From the NCBI RefSeq assembly GCF_006716645.1, contig NZ_VFPL01000001.1, positions 992,001-1,056,000 of the forward strand: DNA of 64,000 nt, given 5' to 3'. Positions 30,858-61,923 of this stretch are shown piece by piece. This DNA comes from Arcticibacter tournemirensis. GTDB lineage: Bacteria; Bacteroidota; Bacteroidia; Sphingobacteriales; Sphingobacteriaceae. Below the pieces are notes generated by a model. That model was not told the origin of the DNA and did not search any database. It was given only the letters and a program-made list of their open reading frames with translations. The position numbers and the translations under genes were made by a program. The stretch's first letter is position 1. Each line of letters opens with the position of its first letter.

Positions 30858-32132
30858 ATGAAAATCGAGAGGTACCAGATCGAAGAGCACAATACAAATT
30901 TGTCTCAGGATCATAAGCGGAGGTTCGAATTCCTGGCACAGGATATTAGCCGTGCAGAAGAAATTATTCAGAAATTAATAAAGTTTCAGATTGCTATACC
31001 AAGCTGGGCTTTGGGTACCGGCGGTACGCGTTTTGGAAGATTTTCAGGAGGTGGAGAGCCGGGAAACCTCGAGGAGAAAATGGAAGATATAGGTTTATTA
31101 CACCAGTTAAACCAGTCGAGCGGTGCAATTTCTCTTCATATTCCATGGGATATTCCTGAAAATGCCCAGGCTGTAAAGGCGCTTGCCGCGCAATACGGTT
31201 TACGCTTCGATGCCATGAACTCCAATACCTTTCAGGATCAGCCTGACCAGAAGCTCAGCTATAAGTTCGGATCTATGCAACATGTAGATAAAGCAGTCAG
31301 GAAGCAGGCTGTGGACCATAATATCGAAGTAATAAGACATGGTATTGAGCTTGGATCAAAATCACTTACAGTTTGGCTTGCCGACGGATCTTGTTTTCCT
31401 GGACAGCTAAACTTCAGAAAAGCGTTCGAAAATACACTTGAAAGCCTTCAGGAAGTGTACGCGGCTTTGCCGGATGACTGGAAAGTGTTTGTTGAGTATA
31501 AGGCATTTGAACCTAACTTTTATTCTACAACGGTTGGCGACTGGGGTCAGTCTTTGTTATATGCAAACAAACTTGGTCCTAAAGCGTATACGCTGGTCGA
31601 TCTCGGCCATCACTTGCCAAATGCCAACATAGAACAGATTGTCTCCCTGCTGCTGATGGAAGGCAAGCTTGGTGGCTTTCATTTTAACGATTCAAAATAT
31701 GGTGATGATGATCTCACCGCCGGAAGTATCAAGCCATACCAGTTATTCCTTATCTTTAATGAGCTGGTAGCCGGAATGGATGCCAAGGGAATGGATCATG
31801 CTACCGGATTAGGCTGGATGATCGATGCCTCTCATAATGTAAAAGATCCTCTGGAGGATTTGTTACAGTCGGTAGAAGCTATCATGATGGCTTACGCCCA
31901 GGCGCTTTTAGTGGATGCAGATGCTTTAGAACGGGCACGGCAGGAAAATGATGTCGTTCGCTGTCAGGAAATTCTTCAGAACGCATTCCGCACGGATGTT
32001 CGTCCTCTGGTTGCCGAAGCAAGGTTAAGAAGTAATGCCGCTATTAATCCTGTTCAGTTGTTCAGGGAGCTGAAAGTGAGGGAGAAGCTGATTGCTGAAC
32101 GTGGGGTGAAAACAGTAGCAACGGGACTATAA
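30858..32132 (+). CDS. rhaI: L-rhamnose isomerase (RhaI type)
   Basis: 424 residues, TIM barrel of the Pseudomonas stutzeri-type L-rhamnose isomerases. It converts L-rhamnose to L-rhamnulose in the cytoplasm. Metal and substrate residues are visible in VEYKAFEP, LVDLGHHLPNANIE and GFHFNDSKYGDDD. The N-terminal loop IPSWALGTGGTRFGRFSGGG is characteristic and separates it from the E. coli RhaA branch. It is third in the operon, followed by a heptad-repeat palindrome before the kinase. Confidence 0.93.
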   Translation: MKIERYQIEEHNTNLSQDHKRRFEFLAQDISRAEEIIQKLIKFQIAIPSWALGTGGTRFGRFSGGGEPGNLEEKMEDIGLLHQLNQSSGAISLHIPWDIPENAQAVKALAAQYGLRFDAMNSNTFQDQPDQKLSYKFGSMQHVDKAVRKQAVDHNIEVIRHGIELGSKSLTVWLADGSCFPGQLNFRKAFENTLESLQEVYAALPDDWKVFVEYKAFEPNFYSTTVGDWGQSLLYANKLGPKAYTLVDLGHHLPNANIEQIVSLLLMEGKLGGFHFNDSKYGDDDLTAGSIKPYQLFLIFNELVAGMDAKGMDHATGLGWMIDASHNVKDPLEDLLQSVEAIMMAYAQALLVDADALERARQENDVVRCQEILQNAFRTDVRPLVAEARLRSNAAINPVQLFRELKVREKLIAERGVKTVATGL

Positions 32133-32134
32133 GT

Positions 32135-32224
32135 GTTGAAGGTTGAAGGTCGAAAGTTGAAGGGATGTCAAGCGATCTCGCTATCCATACCTCAACTTTC
32201 AACTTTCAACCTTCAACTTTGAAC
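32135..32224. repeat. heptad-periodic palindrome between rhaI and the kinase
   Basis: The left arm (32135-32162) is four tandem heptamers GTTGAAG, GTTGAAG, GTCGAAA, GTTGAAG. The right arm (32193-32220) is CAACTTT, CAACTTT, CAACCTT, CAACTTT. They pair over about 26 positions with one mismatch and one G-T. The element lies between the isomerase stop and the kinase start (32235) and would form a strong hairpin within the operon mRNA. Confidence 0.88.
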
Positions 32225-32234
32225 AAATAAGTAT

Positions 32235-33620
32235 ATGGCAATTCCTGTTATAGCAGTATTTGATGTTGGTAAAACCAACAAAAAGGTGTTCTTTTTTGAT
32301 GAACAATATAAGATCGTATTAGAAAGATCTGTCCGGTTTGAAGAAACGGTGGATGAAGATGGTGACCCCTGTGAAGATATCAATCTACTTGCATCCTGGG
32401 TCAAAGAAAGACTTCGGGAGCTGGCTTCTCTCAAAGAATTTGATCTGAAAGCGGTAAACTTTTCGGCGTATGGGGCAAGTTTTGTTCATATTGACGAAAA
32501 CGGCGATCCGGTCACTCCTCTTTATAATTATCTGAAGTCATACCCTGAAGAGCTCAAAAAACAGTTCTATGGTCAGTATGGAGGGGAATTAAAGATGTCG
32601 ACAGAAACCGCTTCGCCGGTGCTCGGCAGTTTGAATTCCGGTATGCAGTTATACCGGTTAAAACATGAAAAGCCGGAACTCTTTAAAAAGATTGAATATT
32701 CGCTTCATCTCCCGCAATACCTTAGTTACCTGATTACACGTAAAGCATACAGCGATATTACAAGTATCGGCTGCCATACAGGTTTATGGGATTTTTCAAA
32801 AAAGGACTATCACCGCTGGGTAAAAGAGGAGGGCATTATTGAAAAGCTTGCTCCCTTGTATCCATCAGACGCAGCACTCGAGGTGCGGGCCGAAGGCAAA
32901 AAGTATTTTACAGGGGTTGGTCTTCACGACAGTTCAGCCGCTTTCATTCCCTTCATCACAAGTTTTCAGAAACCCTTTGTGTTGCTTTCCACGGGTACAT
33001 GGTGTGTTAGCTTAAATGCATTTAATTCTTCACCGCTGACAGAAGAAGAACTGAAGAACGACTGCCTTTGCTACATCAGCTTCCGGGAAAACTTCGTAAA
33101 GGCATCTCGCCTGTTCGCCGGAAACGAGCATGAGCAGCAAAGTAAAAGAATAGCATCCCATTTTAACGTGGCAACCGGTTTTTATAACCGAATGCTGTAT
33201 AATTCTGAAATAGCCGCCCGCCTGAAGGCTGAAAGTGACATAGTTGAACCTGCACGGCATTCGGGCGACCTCATTACCTCCGGTTTTGAGAATCGCGACC
33301 TCTCCCTATTTACGTCAAAGGAAGAAGCCTACCATCAGTTAATTATGGACTTGCTGAAAATGCAGACAAAGTCGACAAAATTAGTGTTAAACGGAACTTC
33401 TGTAAGACGTATATTTGTTGATGGAGGATTTAGCAGAAATCCGGTATATATGAACTTGCTGGCTGCGGCACTTCCTGAAATGGAGGTTTTTGCTGCTTCG
33501 GTAGCTCAGGCCACTTCTATTGGTGCCGCCCTTGCCCTGCATAATCACTGGAATTCAAATCCGCTTCCCTCCAGCATTATAGACTTAAAGTATTATTCAG
33601 CATCAGAATTAACAATATGA
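32235..33620 (+). CDS. rhaB: L-rhamnulokinase-type FGGY carbohydrate kinase
   Basis: 461 residues with the two-domain FGGY/actin-like fold. The N-terminal phosphate loop is VIAVFDVGKTNKKVFFFD, a second nucleotide motif is VLLSTGTWCVSL, and the adenosine-binding region is RRIFVDGGFSRNP. Position among rhamnose genes makes L-rhamnulose the likely substrate; sequence alone cannot exclude another 6-deoxyketose such as fuculose. The stop overlaps the lutA start by four bases (ATGA). Confidence 0.87.
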   Translation: MAIPVIAVFDVGKTNKKVFFFDEQYKIVLERSVRFEETVDEDGDPCEDINLLASWVKERLRELASLKEFDLKAVNFSAYGASFVHIDENGDPVTPLYNYLKSYPEELKKQFYGQYGGELKMSTETASPVLGSLNSGMQLYRLKHEKPELFKKIEYSLHLPQYLSYLITRKAYSDITSIGCHTGLWDFSKKDYHRWVKEEGIIEKLAPLYPSDAALEVRAEGKKYFTGVGLHDSSAAFIPFITSFQKPFVLLSTGTWCVSLNAFNSSPLTEEELKNDCLCYISFRENFVKASRLFAGNEHEQQSKRIASHFNVATGFYNRMLYNSEIAARLKAESDIVEPARHSGDLITSGFENRDLSLFTSKEEAYHQLIMDLLKMQTKSTKLVLNGTSVRRIFVDGGFSRNPVYMNLLAAALPEMEVFAASVAQATSIGAALALHNHWNSNPLPSSIIDLKYYSASELTI

Positions 33621-35715: not shown

Positions 35716-35763
35716 AAGTCAGAATCTGAACGGATCAAAAAAGATATGCATATTGCTTTATCC

Positions 35764-35791
35764 CGCAACTCACAACATTCAACCCGCAACC
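35764..35791. repeat. heptad-periodic tract between lutB and lutC
   Basis: CAAC occurs at 35766, 35773, 35780 and 35787, exactly 7 bases apart, within degenerate heptamers CGCAACT, CACAACA, TTCAACC, CGCAACC. No complementary arm is present, so this is a one-armed or decayed member of the family seen elsewhere in the window. Confidence 0.65.
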
Positions 35792-35797
35792 CAGACT

Positions 35798-45373: not shown

Positions 45374-45550
45374 GGCCTCCTTGTCCTCGTTTACAAGGAA
45401 TCGCCCGTAGAAGATCTCAGGATGATTAATTGTACGATAAAAGGAGTCAATACTCCTTATAAAGTAGATTATGTACGAAGTTTGCACCTGGAAAATGTAA
45501 AGATAAACGGTGAAATGGTAATATTGCCTGATACGCTGAAGGTAAGGTGA
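45374..45550 (+). pseudogene. C-terminal remnant of a GH28 polygalacturonase-like gene
   Basis: A frame open from 45374 to the stop at 45548-45550 reads ESPVEDLRMINCTIKGVNTP, then a VDYVRSLHLENVKING stretch. This resembles the closing beta-helix coils of Bacteroidota GH28 enzymes (C-x-x-x-GV ... V-x-x-L-x-L-x-NV-x-ING). No start codon or catalytic part precedes it. The 650 bases between the PL22 and DUF4450-like genes otherwise hold no convincing coding sequence, so most of a former GH28 gene seems lost. Confidence 0.5.
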
Positions 45551-45552
45551 GG

Positions 45553-45682
45553 AAGGTTGAAAGGCATAAAGTGGGAAGGTAAGAGGTTAAAGGTTAAAGC
45601 AAAAAGCGACTGATATAGGTGTTAAATTGAGGCATGCAAGCAGGAAGCTTTTAACTTTAGACTTTAAGTTTTCTGCTTAAAA
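45553..45682. repeat. heptad-periodic imperfect palindrome upstream of the DUF4450-like gene
   Basis: The left side holds AGGTTAA, AGGTTAA and related words (about 45584-45600). The right side runs CTTTTAA, CTTTAGA, CTTTAAG, TTTTCTG, CTTAAAA at 45648, 45655, 45662, 45669 and 45676, exactly 7 apart. The sides are roughly complementary. It ends a few bases before the next start codon and overlaps that gene's leader. Confidence 0.7.
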
Positions 45683-45686
45683 TATA

Positions 45687-59822: not shown

Positions 59823-60956
59823 ATGAGAGTTCCTAGACTATTTGCTGTTTTAAATTTCCTTGCAATTTTATCATTATCAAGCCTCGCTGCTGCCCAGACT
59901 TCCGCAGCTAATAAGCTTTCGAAGAAAACGTATAAAAATCCTCTTAAAGTAGCCTTGGGCGATCCCTATGTGCTGCATGATAAGGGAACCTATTACATGT
60001 ACGGTACAGGTGGTGGCGCAAAAGATGGTTTTCTGGCCTATTCGTCCAAAGATCTCGTTAACTGGAAAAACGAGGGTCAGGTATACTTTGGGAATACGAA
60101 TAATTCATGGAGTACAGACGCTTTCTGGGCACCGGAGGTATATCAGGTGAAAGGTAAGTATTATATGTTCTTCAGTGCTCAATGGAGGCATAATCCAACA
60201 AACGAGGAAGAGAATTTTCGCATTGGGGTTGCTGTGGCTGATAAGCCTACCGGTCCTTTTAAGGACCTTAGTGATCGTCCTGTTTTCGATCCCGGATATC
60301 CGATAATTGATGCCAATGTGTTTTTTGATAAAGATGGAAAAGTTTATTTGTACTATTCCCGTTGCTGTTATAAACACGCCGTGGAAAGCGAAGTAGCGGA
60401 TTGGGCGCGTAAAAAGGGATGGTATAATAAAATCGAGGAAAGCTGGATATATGGTGTAGAGCTTAAACCTGACTTTAGCGGTGTAATTGGAAAGCCTGTC
60501 ATGATTTTACGTCCTCCTGTGAGTATGAAGGATAAGCAGGCCGAATGGGAAAGCCGTTCGGTTACATCCAAAGAGGTAAACCGCCGGTGGACAGAAGGGT
60601 CCACAACCTTTAGACGCGGTAATACTTATTATATGATGTATTCTGCCAACCATTTTGGCGGGGAGCACTATGCCGTTGGATACGCTACTTCAAAAAGTCC
60701 GCTTGGCCCGTATACTAAGGCATCAAACAATCCGGTACTTCAAAAGAATACAGAAAAAGGTGGCGACGTAACCGGAACAGGCCATAATAGTATAACGTAT
60801 TCTCCCAATGGCAAAGAAATGTTCTGCGTTTACCATGGTCGCACTACCTCCACAGGAAAAGAAAGGGTAGTTTTTATAGATCGCATGGATATTCTTAAAG
60901 ACGGCAGACTGGTGGTGAACGGCCCAACTACGTCTGCTCAGCCGGTACCATATTAG
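59823..60956 (+). CDS. GH43 glycoside hydrolase (arabinan/galactan-directed)
   Basis: 377 residues with a signal peptide (to about 24, LAAAQT). Five-bladed propeller; base Asp in VALGDPYVLHDKG, second Asp in IIDANVFFDKDG, acid Glu in RWTEGSTTF. The FWAPEVYQVKGKYYMF blade is typical of arabinanase-like and galactosidase-like GH43 subgroups. It is last in the polysaccharide locus and followed by the longest heptad-repeat palindrome. Confidence 0.92.
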   Translation: MRVPRLFAVLNFLAILSLSSLAAAQTSAANKLSKKTYKNPLKVALGDPYVLHDKGTYYMYGTGGGAKDGFLAYSSKDLVNWKNEGQVYFGNTNNSWSTDAFWAPEVYQVKGKYYMFFSAQWRHNPTNEEENFRIGVAVADKPTGPFKDLSDRPVFDPGYPIIDANVFFDKDGKVYLYYSRCCYKHAVESEVADWARKKGWYNKIEESWIYGVELKPDFSGVIGKPVMILRPPVSMKDKQAEWESRSVTSKEVNRRWTEGSTTFRRGNTYYMMYSANHFGGEHYAVGYATSKSPLGPYTKASNNPVLQKNTEKGGDVTGTGHNSITYSPNGKEMFCVYHGRTTSTGKERVVFIDRMDILKDGRLVVNGPTTSAQPVPY

Positions 60957-61140
60957 AGTATCAAGACACTAGTATCAAGTATCAAGACGAGAATCATAAT
61001 TTAGTATCAAGTATCTGGTATGAAGTATCGAGATAAGAATATAGAGCACTAACCTTAATGCGTATATCTTGATACTTGATACTTGCATCTTGATACTTGA
61101 GTTATATCCCGATACTTGATACTTGTGTCTTGATACTAAC
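60957..61140. repeat. long heptad-periodic palindrome after the polysaccharide locus
   Basis: TATCAAG starts at 60959, 60973, 60980 and 61005, continued by TATCTGG, TATGAAG, TATCGAG at 61012, 61019 and 61026. The other side has the complement CTTGATA at 61068, 61075, 61089, 61115 and 61129, with variants CTTGCAT and CTTGTGT in phase. All steps are multiples of 7 within each block. The whole 184 bases between the convergent GH43 and pflA genes is made of this. Confidence 0.88.
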
Positions 61141-61923
61141 CTATTTCAGCACCACATTCCCAAAATACTTGCTGAAAATGCTCAATGCTGTTTGCTTTAT
61201 CTCCTCTGATGGAGAGGGTGTATCTTTTAGTGGATACTTCATATTTAGGAGTTCCCACTTATGAAGGCCTAATTGATGGAACGGGATAATTTCCACCCTT
61301 TCCACAGTTTTATAATCTGTAAAACGCTGGCCCCATTCTTCGAGGTATTGCTCCTGATCCGTCCATCCCGGTACCAGAACGTAGCGCAGCCACATCCGTT
61401 TTCCGGAAGATTCTCTATAGGCAGCGAGATCTAAAGTATTCTTGTTTGTTAAACCCGTAAGCTTGTGATGAATATCGTCATTGATATGCTTTACATCAAG
61501 CAGCACCAGGTCTGTATGTTCCAGCAACTCATGAACCTGTGCATTGTTCAGCCTTCCGTTGGTGTCGAGGCAGGTGTTGATACCTTCCTCATGCAGCAAC
61601 TTAAAAAACTTAAGCAACTTACTGCGTTGAAGCAGAGGCTCTCCTCCCGATACTGTTACCCCACCTTCTTTTCCAAAATAGGTTTTCTGACGGATAGCTC
61701 GGTTCACCAGCTCTTTAATCTCTACCATTGTTCCCCCTCTGACATCCAGTGTATCGGGGTTTTGACAATAAAGACATCTGAACTGACAACCCTGTACAAA
61801 TATCACCATCCGTATGCCCGGCCCGTCGTGCGTACCAAATGTCTCAAGAGAGTGGATCCGTAAATGATCCGGATCATCTATATTCAGTTTTGCTGCTTCT
61901 ATATCCTGTAATGGAAAATACAT
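61141..61923 (-). CDS. pflA: pyruvate formate-lyase activating enzyme
   Basis: 260 residues, radical-SAM enzyme that places the glycyl radical on PflB. The sequence GTHDGPGIRMVIFVQGCQFR leads into the cluster motif Cys-x3-Cys-x2-Cys (CQFRCLYC). TVSGGEPLLQ and LDTNG match SAM binding. It follows pflB on the same strand after 114 bases that include a terminator-like hairpin. Active only under low oxygen, in line with the cbb3/HemN block in the window. Confidence 0.94.
   Translation of the reverse strand: MYFPLQDIEAAKLNIDDPDHLRIHSLETFGTHDGPGIRMVIFVQGCQFRCLYCQNPDTLDVRGGTMVEIKELVNRAIRQKTYFGKEGGVTVSGGEPLLQRSKLLKFFKLLHEEGINTCLDTNGRLNNAQVHELLEHTDLVLLDVKHINDDIHHKLTGLTNKNTLDLAAYRESSGKRMWLRYVLVPGWTDQEQYLEEWGQRFTDYKTVERVEIIPFHQLGLHKWELLNMKYPLKDTPSPSEEIKQTALSIFSKYFGNVVLK

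Follow-up and report, generated by a model that had tools for sequence, protein, structure and literature searches.

Inverted heptamer arrays behind stop codons in Bacteroidota keep their step while their words change

STRR sequences of filamentous cyanobacteria are intergenic, hairpin-forming repeats, usually with 7-bp units, that occur inside operons such as hupS-hupL (PMC2670836), and the STRR csR1.1 of Nostoc is ttgtcagttgtcagttgtca (PMC2408588). In Xanthomonas, GGGAATC heptamers are found in intergenic regions, not far from the upstream gene's 3' end, with 70-75 convergent pairs, and GGGGA(C/T)T heptamers occur in Nostoc (PMC4692102). TAACTGA repeats of Beggiatoaceae, Cyanobacteria and some Bacteroidetes are likewise intergenic and display 7-nt indels between strains (PMC4679880).

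The elements described here, from a Sphingobacteriaceae genome and other Bacteroidota, work like an STRR, and the heptameric STRRs of cyanobacteria and the GGGAATC repeats of Xanthomonas are the closest known systems. As in STRRs, 7-bp tandem units lie in intergenic regions and several words are dispersed in one genome; the csR1.1 heptamer is the same as that in the rhaA-rhaB gap of Hufsiella, a likeness of the word alone. Unlike STRRs, our elements belong to Bacteroidota, use far more words, form inverted pairs with a fixed polarity and have a period of 8 in one genus at the rhaA-rhaB site, and their change of word was measured in orthologous gaps. Pairing of repeats in convergent orientation, which in Xanthomonas we read as G-rich first, is shared with the repeats of that genus, but a single G-quadruplex-forming word is repeated there and in Nostoc, whereas few of our 123 words have G-tracts. 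The heptamer step and the intergenic location are shared with the TAACTGA repeats; those, however, are direct repeats of one word with a single inverted case and lie mostly just upstream of start codons, whereas ours lie behind stop codons. Like REPs and REPINs, the elements are palindromes dispersed in high number between genes. In place of a conserved 20-40 bp palindrome with a terminal tag and many near-identical copies, however, they have many words and no common sequence or loops, and neither a tetranucleotide tag nor a RAYT gene was seen. In the literature searched, we did not find described this number of words, the replacement of words in orthologous gaps, a genus-wide period of 8 at one site, a count of polarity or mirrored units.

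The window (64,000 nucleotides, positions 992001-1056000 of contig C1) is part of a 5.66-Mb genome in two contigs, whose relatives include Pararcticibacter and Arcticibacter. Five of its gaps had been singled out as carrying degenerate tandem heptamers (Table 1). Dinucleotide shuffles were used to evaluate the lag-7 sum and the palindrome of each, and the lag-7 signal was significant in all five (p<0.002 to 0.014). The longest member does occupy, as the original prediction had it, the whole gap between two convergent genes, from the GH43 stop codon to the radical-SAM stop codon. It has a lag-7 sum of 32 (1.0 when shuffled; p<0.002), a palindrome of 26/27 (p<0.005) and a predicted RNA fold of -75.3 kcal/mol. 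Four of the five gaps had also been said to fold back on themselves. This was clear for three: the 60.96 kb gap, the rhaA-rhaB gap at 32.14 kb (lag-7 sum 34 vs 0.3 shuffled; palindrome 24/26; -46.1 kcal/mol) and the ccoP-ccoG gap at 12.07 kb (lag-7 sum 10, p=0.004; palindrome 22/23; -26.2 kcal/mol). The 45.55 kb gap was strongly periodic (lag-7 sum 22, p<0.002) with a marginal palindrome (17/21, p=0.05). The array at 35.76 kb (lag-7 sum 8, p=0.014) had no palindrome against the same shuffles; a like array is found in the lutB-lutC gap of the nearest relative, L051. A BLAST search of the 60.96 kb element against plasmids and an Rfam search of the window at gathering score returned no match.

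Table 1. Heptamer elements of the window and genes adjoining them (positions in the window)
Feature	Position	Strand	Remark
Two-armed heptamer element, GTTTTAA/GTAATAG/GTTGTAA	12067..12138	.	between ccoP and ccoG
rhaA-type L-rhamnose isomerase gene	30858..32132	+	upstream neighbour in orthologue comparison
Two-armed heptamer element, GTTGAAG / CTTCAAC	32133..32228	.	rhaA (stop 32130-32132) to rhaB (32235)
rhaB-type FGGY kinase gene	32235..33620	+	downstream neighbour of 32.14 kb element
One-armed short heptamer array (CCCGCAACTCACAACATTCAACCCGCAACCC)	35763..35797	-	precedes lutC
Degenerate heptamer array, AAGGTTA/AAGTGGG ... CTTTTAA/CTTTAAG	45529..45686	.	weak palindrome
GH43 glycoside hydrolase gene	59823..60956	+	left neighbour of 60.96 kb element
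Two-armed heptamer element, TATCAAG / CTTGATA	60957..61140	.	184 bp, between two convergent genes
Radical-SAM / 4Fe-4S protein gene	61141..61923	-	right, convergent neighbour of 60.96 kb element

The autocorrelation check proposed with the original prediction was run on 1.66 Mb of the genome as a search for local lag-k self-similarity segments (score of at least 15), with plain open reading frames of at least 80-100 codons taken as genes. A coarser scan, over 42 bases and with a high threshold, had given nothing at any lag; it was too strict, and local segments were used instead. Intergenic sequence contained 64 segments at lag 7, 57 at lag 14, 41 at lag 21 and 32 at lag 28, and between 0 and 8 at each of the remaining lags from 4 to 30; coding sequence contained 5 at lag 7. 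A small intergenic excess was also seen at lags 11 (8 segments) and 22 (7 segments), which are not multiples of 7. Perfect tandem dimers followed the same pattern, with 110 at period 7 vs 44 at period 6 and 6 at period 8. The same scan of 80 loci from other Bacteroidota found 61 segments at lag 7, 14 at lag 8 and 0-5 at each of the other lags from 4 to 13. A 200-kb control from E. coli K-12 gave none at lag 7 and one match in all at lags 4-22. The strong lag-7 signal in this genome and in other Bacteroidota, together with its absence from the E. coli control, indicates that the period is a property of the lineage.

The sampled part of the genome yielded at least 123 canonical heptamers, spread over 232 places, and long arrays frequently change word internally. 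The original statement that the word differs at each place was too strong: AAAGTTG recurs at 15 places, AAGTATC at 11, and AGGTTGT and AAGTTGT at 7 each. The words are therefore not all independent, and recurring families exist. A near-perfect long GTTGAAG array at L202:4552-4750 (C1 ~1984552-1984750; lag-7 score 180, more than 20 identical copies) is far more uniform than the others and is likely a recent expansion. Counting overlapping matches inside one array separately, GTTGAAR arrays gave 50 matches in this genome, 319 in one genus mate and 0 in four others. GTTATGA arrays were present in 14 of 198 Bacteroidota genomes, scattered across different families. They recur in distant families (G122, G190, G260, G276) and are absent from the near relatives of the window species, a distribution that may reflect repeated invention or transfer.

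The strongest result came from orthologous gaps. Using a rhaB motif, the rhaA-rhaB gap was excised from 79 genomes; the two genes abut (<30 nt) in 38 of these, and 40 gaps were readable. The best lag was 7 in 24 of the readable gaps, against a mean of ~0.1 for shuffled gaps, and 8 in 7, to which L094 was added by hand; lags 5, 6, 9, 10 and 11 were best in none of the 40. Strong palindromes numbered 22 (0.1 when shuffled). Among 32 periodic gaps there were 27 different words: GTTGAAG in the genome of the window, GTTATGA in its nearest relative L051 (93% RhaA identity), AGATATG in Paradesertivirga, GTTGTCA in Hufsiella, GTTACAG in Niastella and GAATGAGT, with a period of 8, in Larkinella. All six Larkinella species have period 8 in this gap. 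Mapped onto the RhaA tree, period 8 can be explained by 3 changes, compared with 7.8 after shuffling, while period 7 is only weakly clustered (18 vs 20.8). Because period-7 arrays stand alongside period 8 elsewhere in the Larkinella genome, the 8 is a trait of the rhaA-rhaB site and of one word family, not of the whole genome. Within the genus of the window species, the ccoP-ccoG, lutB-lutC and GH43/radical-SAM gaps hold another word at the same gap or no element, L051 combining a different word in its rhaA-rhaB gap with a like word in its lutB-lutC gap. The expectation that the period would hold while words change between relatives was thus borne out in all four gaps. Runs of N lie within the rhaA-rhaB and lutB-lutC gaps of L246 (G004 contig C62), and the same was seen in L052; they may reflect hairpin arrays that break short-read assemblies, or masking.

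The distance from the upstream stop codon to the start of an element has a median of 1 nt. Most are in codirectional and convergent gaps, and divergent gaps are under-represented (7/77 vs 136/630, p=0.01). Periodic hairpins from this genome, from related loci and from Larkinella lead with the arm that has more G than C in 66 of 69 cases; non-periodic hairpins of the same sequences gave 92:56 (Fisher p ~3e-8 for the difference). One-armed arrays are similar in number to two-armed ones and have no coding-strand preference (17:13), which ties the polarity to the two-armed geometry rather than to transcription. The order of units was mirrored exactly between the arms in 20 of 45 palindromes (p<0.1 when units were permuted within an arm, with ~60 shuffles per palindrome). 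This test was scored at a mismatch penalty of -2, as a penalty of -1 was powerless, long imperfect off-register pairings then scoring equally. The mirrored palindromes included two of mixed units, one perfect over 41/41 bp and one matched over 44/45 bp; in palindromes without exact mirroring, the arms have a common word alone. Periodic hairpins have median loops of 18-42 nt and a median arm GC of 0.32-0.39, and a T-rich tail follows 8 of the 69. Intrinsic terminators were rejected on these grounds (long loops, AT-rich arms, few T tails). A Rho-binding ladder with a period of 7 was dropped on argument, since the YC step is missing from some words and would be hidden by the other arm.

Between Larkinella punicea and L. 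humicola (93% identity over aligned DNA) the arms are identical and the loops differ (L116/L125), and in L. rosea the same altered unit is present in both arms (GAATGATA for GAATGAGC). Other layouts were also seen. Larkinella has inverted arrays with a period of ~10 (L116:9795-10035, L125:9805-10035 and L268:13158-13250; GAGTTAAGCA; CTCTGATNNN), the last with its C-rich arm first, and a Niastella array (L105:21051-21255) has long units like ATGAAAACAATTATAGCTATA and an inverted stretch, unlike plain heptamers.

We consider it an even prospect that these elements are heptameric short-tandem-repeat hairpins generated by the cell's own copying errors, through slippage with a fixed step and fold-back copying. 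Slippage in 7-nt steps, or 8-nt steps at the rhaA-rhaB site in Larkinella, would duplicate a short stretch behind a stop codon into a tandem array. Next, the strand being extended, poor in C and rich in G and T, would fold back and copy itself into an inverted arm. Through further rounds of slippage, point mutation and correction by fold-back, period and pairing would persist as the word drifts or gives way to another, and occasional exchange with other arrays would add to the turnover. Arrays would be tolerated solely where no gene or promoter is hit, selection thereby setting their place behind stop codons, where mRNA 3' ends or junctions may make use of the hairpin. The original prediction had left the choice between a copying process and a structure selected for its geometry. 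Exact mirroring in 20/45 palindromes, together with the G-first polarity, speaks for slippage with strand switching; the polarity would follow if the G/T-rich strand can prime itself by G-T and A-T pairs and its complement cannot. Slippage with fold-back would account for the period, the inverted layout, the mirrored units, the polarity and the free choice of word, though not for the value 7. According to a published suggestion (PMC4692102), 7 corresponds to the stretch of DNA that the polymerase holds, an origin with which our data are compatible. Against slippage and fold-back stand the palindromes without exact mirroring and the better conservation of arms than loops in close pairs, which selection on the stem would explain equally. 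The replacement of whole words between close relatives also counts against it, as this looks more like replacement of an element than slow drift.

In the main rival, structure takes precedence: selection would act on a hairpin that follows the stop codon and works as a 3' UTR stabiliser, a processing site or a two-way terminator, and heptamers would be its cheapest raw material. This is a possible account but a rather unlikely one. The position directly behind stop codons, the filling of convergent gaps and the strong RNA folds on both strands agree with it, as do the ordinary hairpins in some orthologous gaps free of heptamers (L054, L086, L124) and the Larkinella arms, more conserved than loops and altered in matched fashion. 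It leaves the period and the G-first polarity unexplained, however, and the ordinary hairpins of the same genomes are largely without them. The scarcity of T-rich tails, the abutting of rhaA and rhaB in nearly half of the genomes (38/79) and the abundance of one-armed arrays also speak against it.

An improbable alternative is a REP- or MITE-like family, moved by a transposase and diverged into many subfamilies. Words do recur at many sites, and their presence is patchy among relatives. In Larkinella one octamer pattern was matched 66 times, its family has dozens of copies whose site-specific variants frequently appear in mirror image in the two arms, and a pair of loops from separate sites look similar (score 10 vs 4.6 for shuffles). 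These octamer copies and loops suggest that copying or conversion between sites probably contributes in Larkinella, and the octamer family looks partly dispersed in this way. No Y1/RAYT protein (Y1_Tnp, PF01797) was present in the complete genome of the window species or in five genus mates, which makes REP-type mobilisation very unlikely. The elements of this genome, including those with the same word, lack a common sequence, terminal tag or common loop, and so do not stem from a single mobile sequence, an outcome that would have refuted the original prediction. In a comparison with MITEs, inverted arms were seen, and inspection by eye revealed no target-site duplication at the single filled/empty gap compared (ccoP-ccoG).

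Two further readings would have the repeats written onto DNA ends. The first, a long shot, is a dedicated or specialised polymerase activity of Bacteroidota with a step set by the lineage (7; 8 in Larkinella), which would write tandem repeats on G-rich 3' ends and close them into inverted pairs, a telomere-like process inside a bacterial chromosome. The other, which we regard as very improbable, resembles telomere fusion: a polymerase that adds repeats would lengthen each 3' end of a break with G-rich repeats, after which the two ends would be joined. The latter predicts exactly the polarity (66:3) and the unrelated loops, and agrees with arms that often have a common word without exact mirroring, but the perfect mirroring of mixed units (41/41, 44/45) requires templating, and many words per genome do not suit one template. 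An array of binding sites for a protein reading one site per 7 bp would suit the strict period and the fixed strand orientation but is highly improbable given the absence of a common word (at least 123 in the sampled part of this genome; 27 in 32 orthologous gaps) and the period of 8 in Larkinella.

Returning to slippage and fold-back, the period, the position, the polarity, the mirroring of arms and the replacement of words in orthologous gaps are observations; step-locked slippage, fold-back copying and any role in mRNA go beyond them as inference. At many operon junctions the hairpins may influence transcript ends, and they may break assemblies. For decades, heptamer repeats have been recorded across several bacterial phyla with the number 7 left unexplained. 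The rhaA-rhaB gap, in which the step is kept and the word changed across dozens of species, the genus that uses 8 there, and the near-absolute polarity make the question of why seven a testable one.
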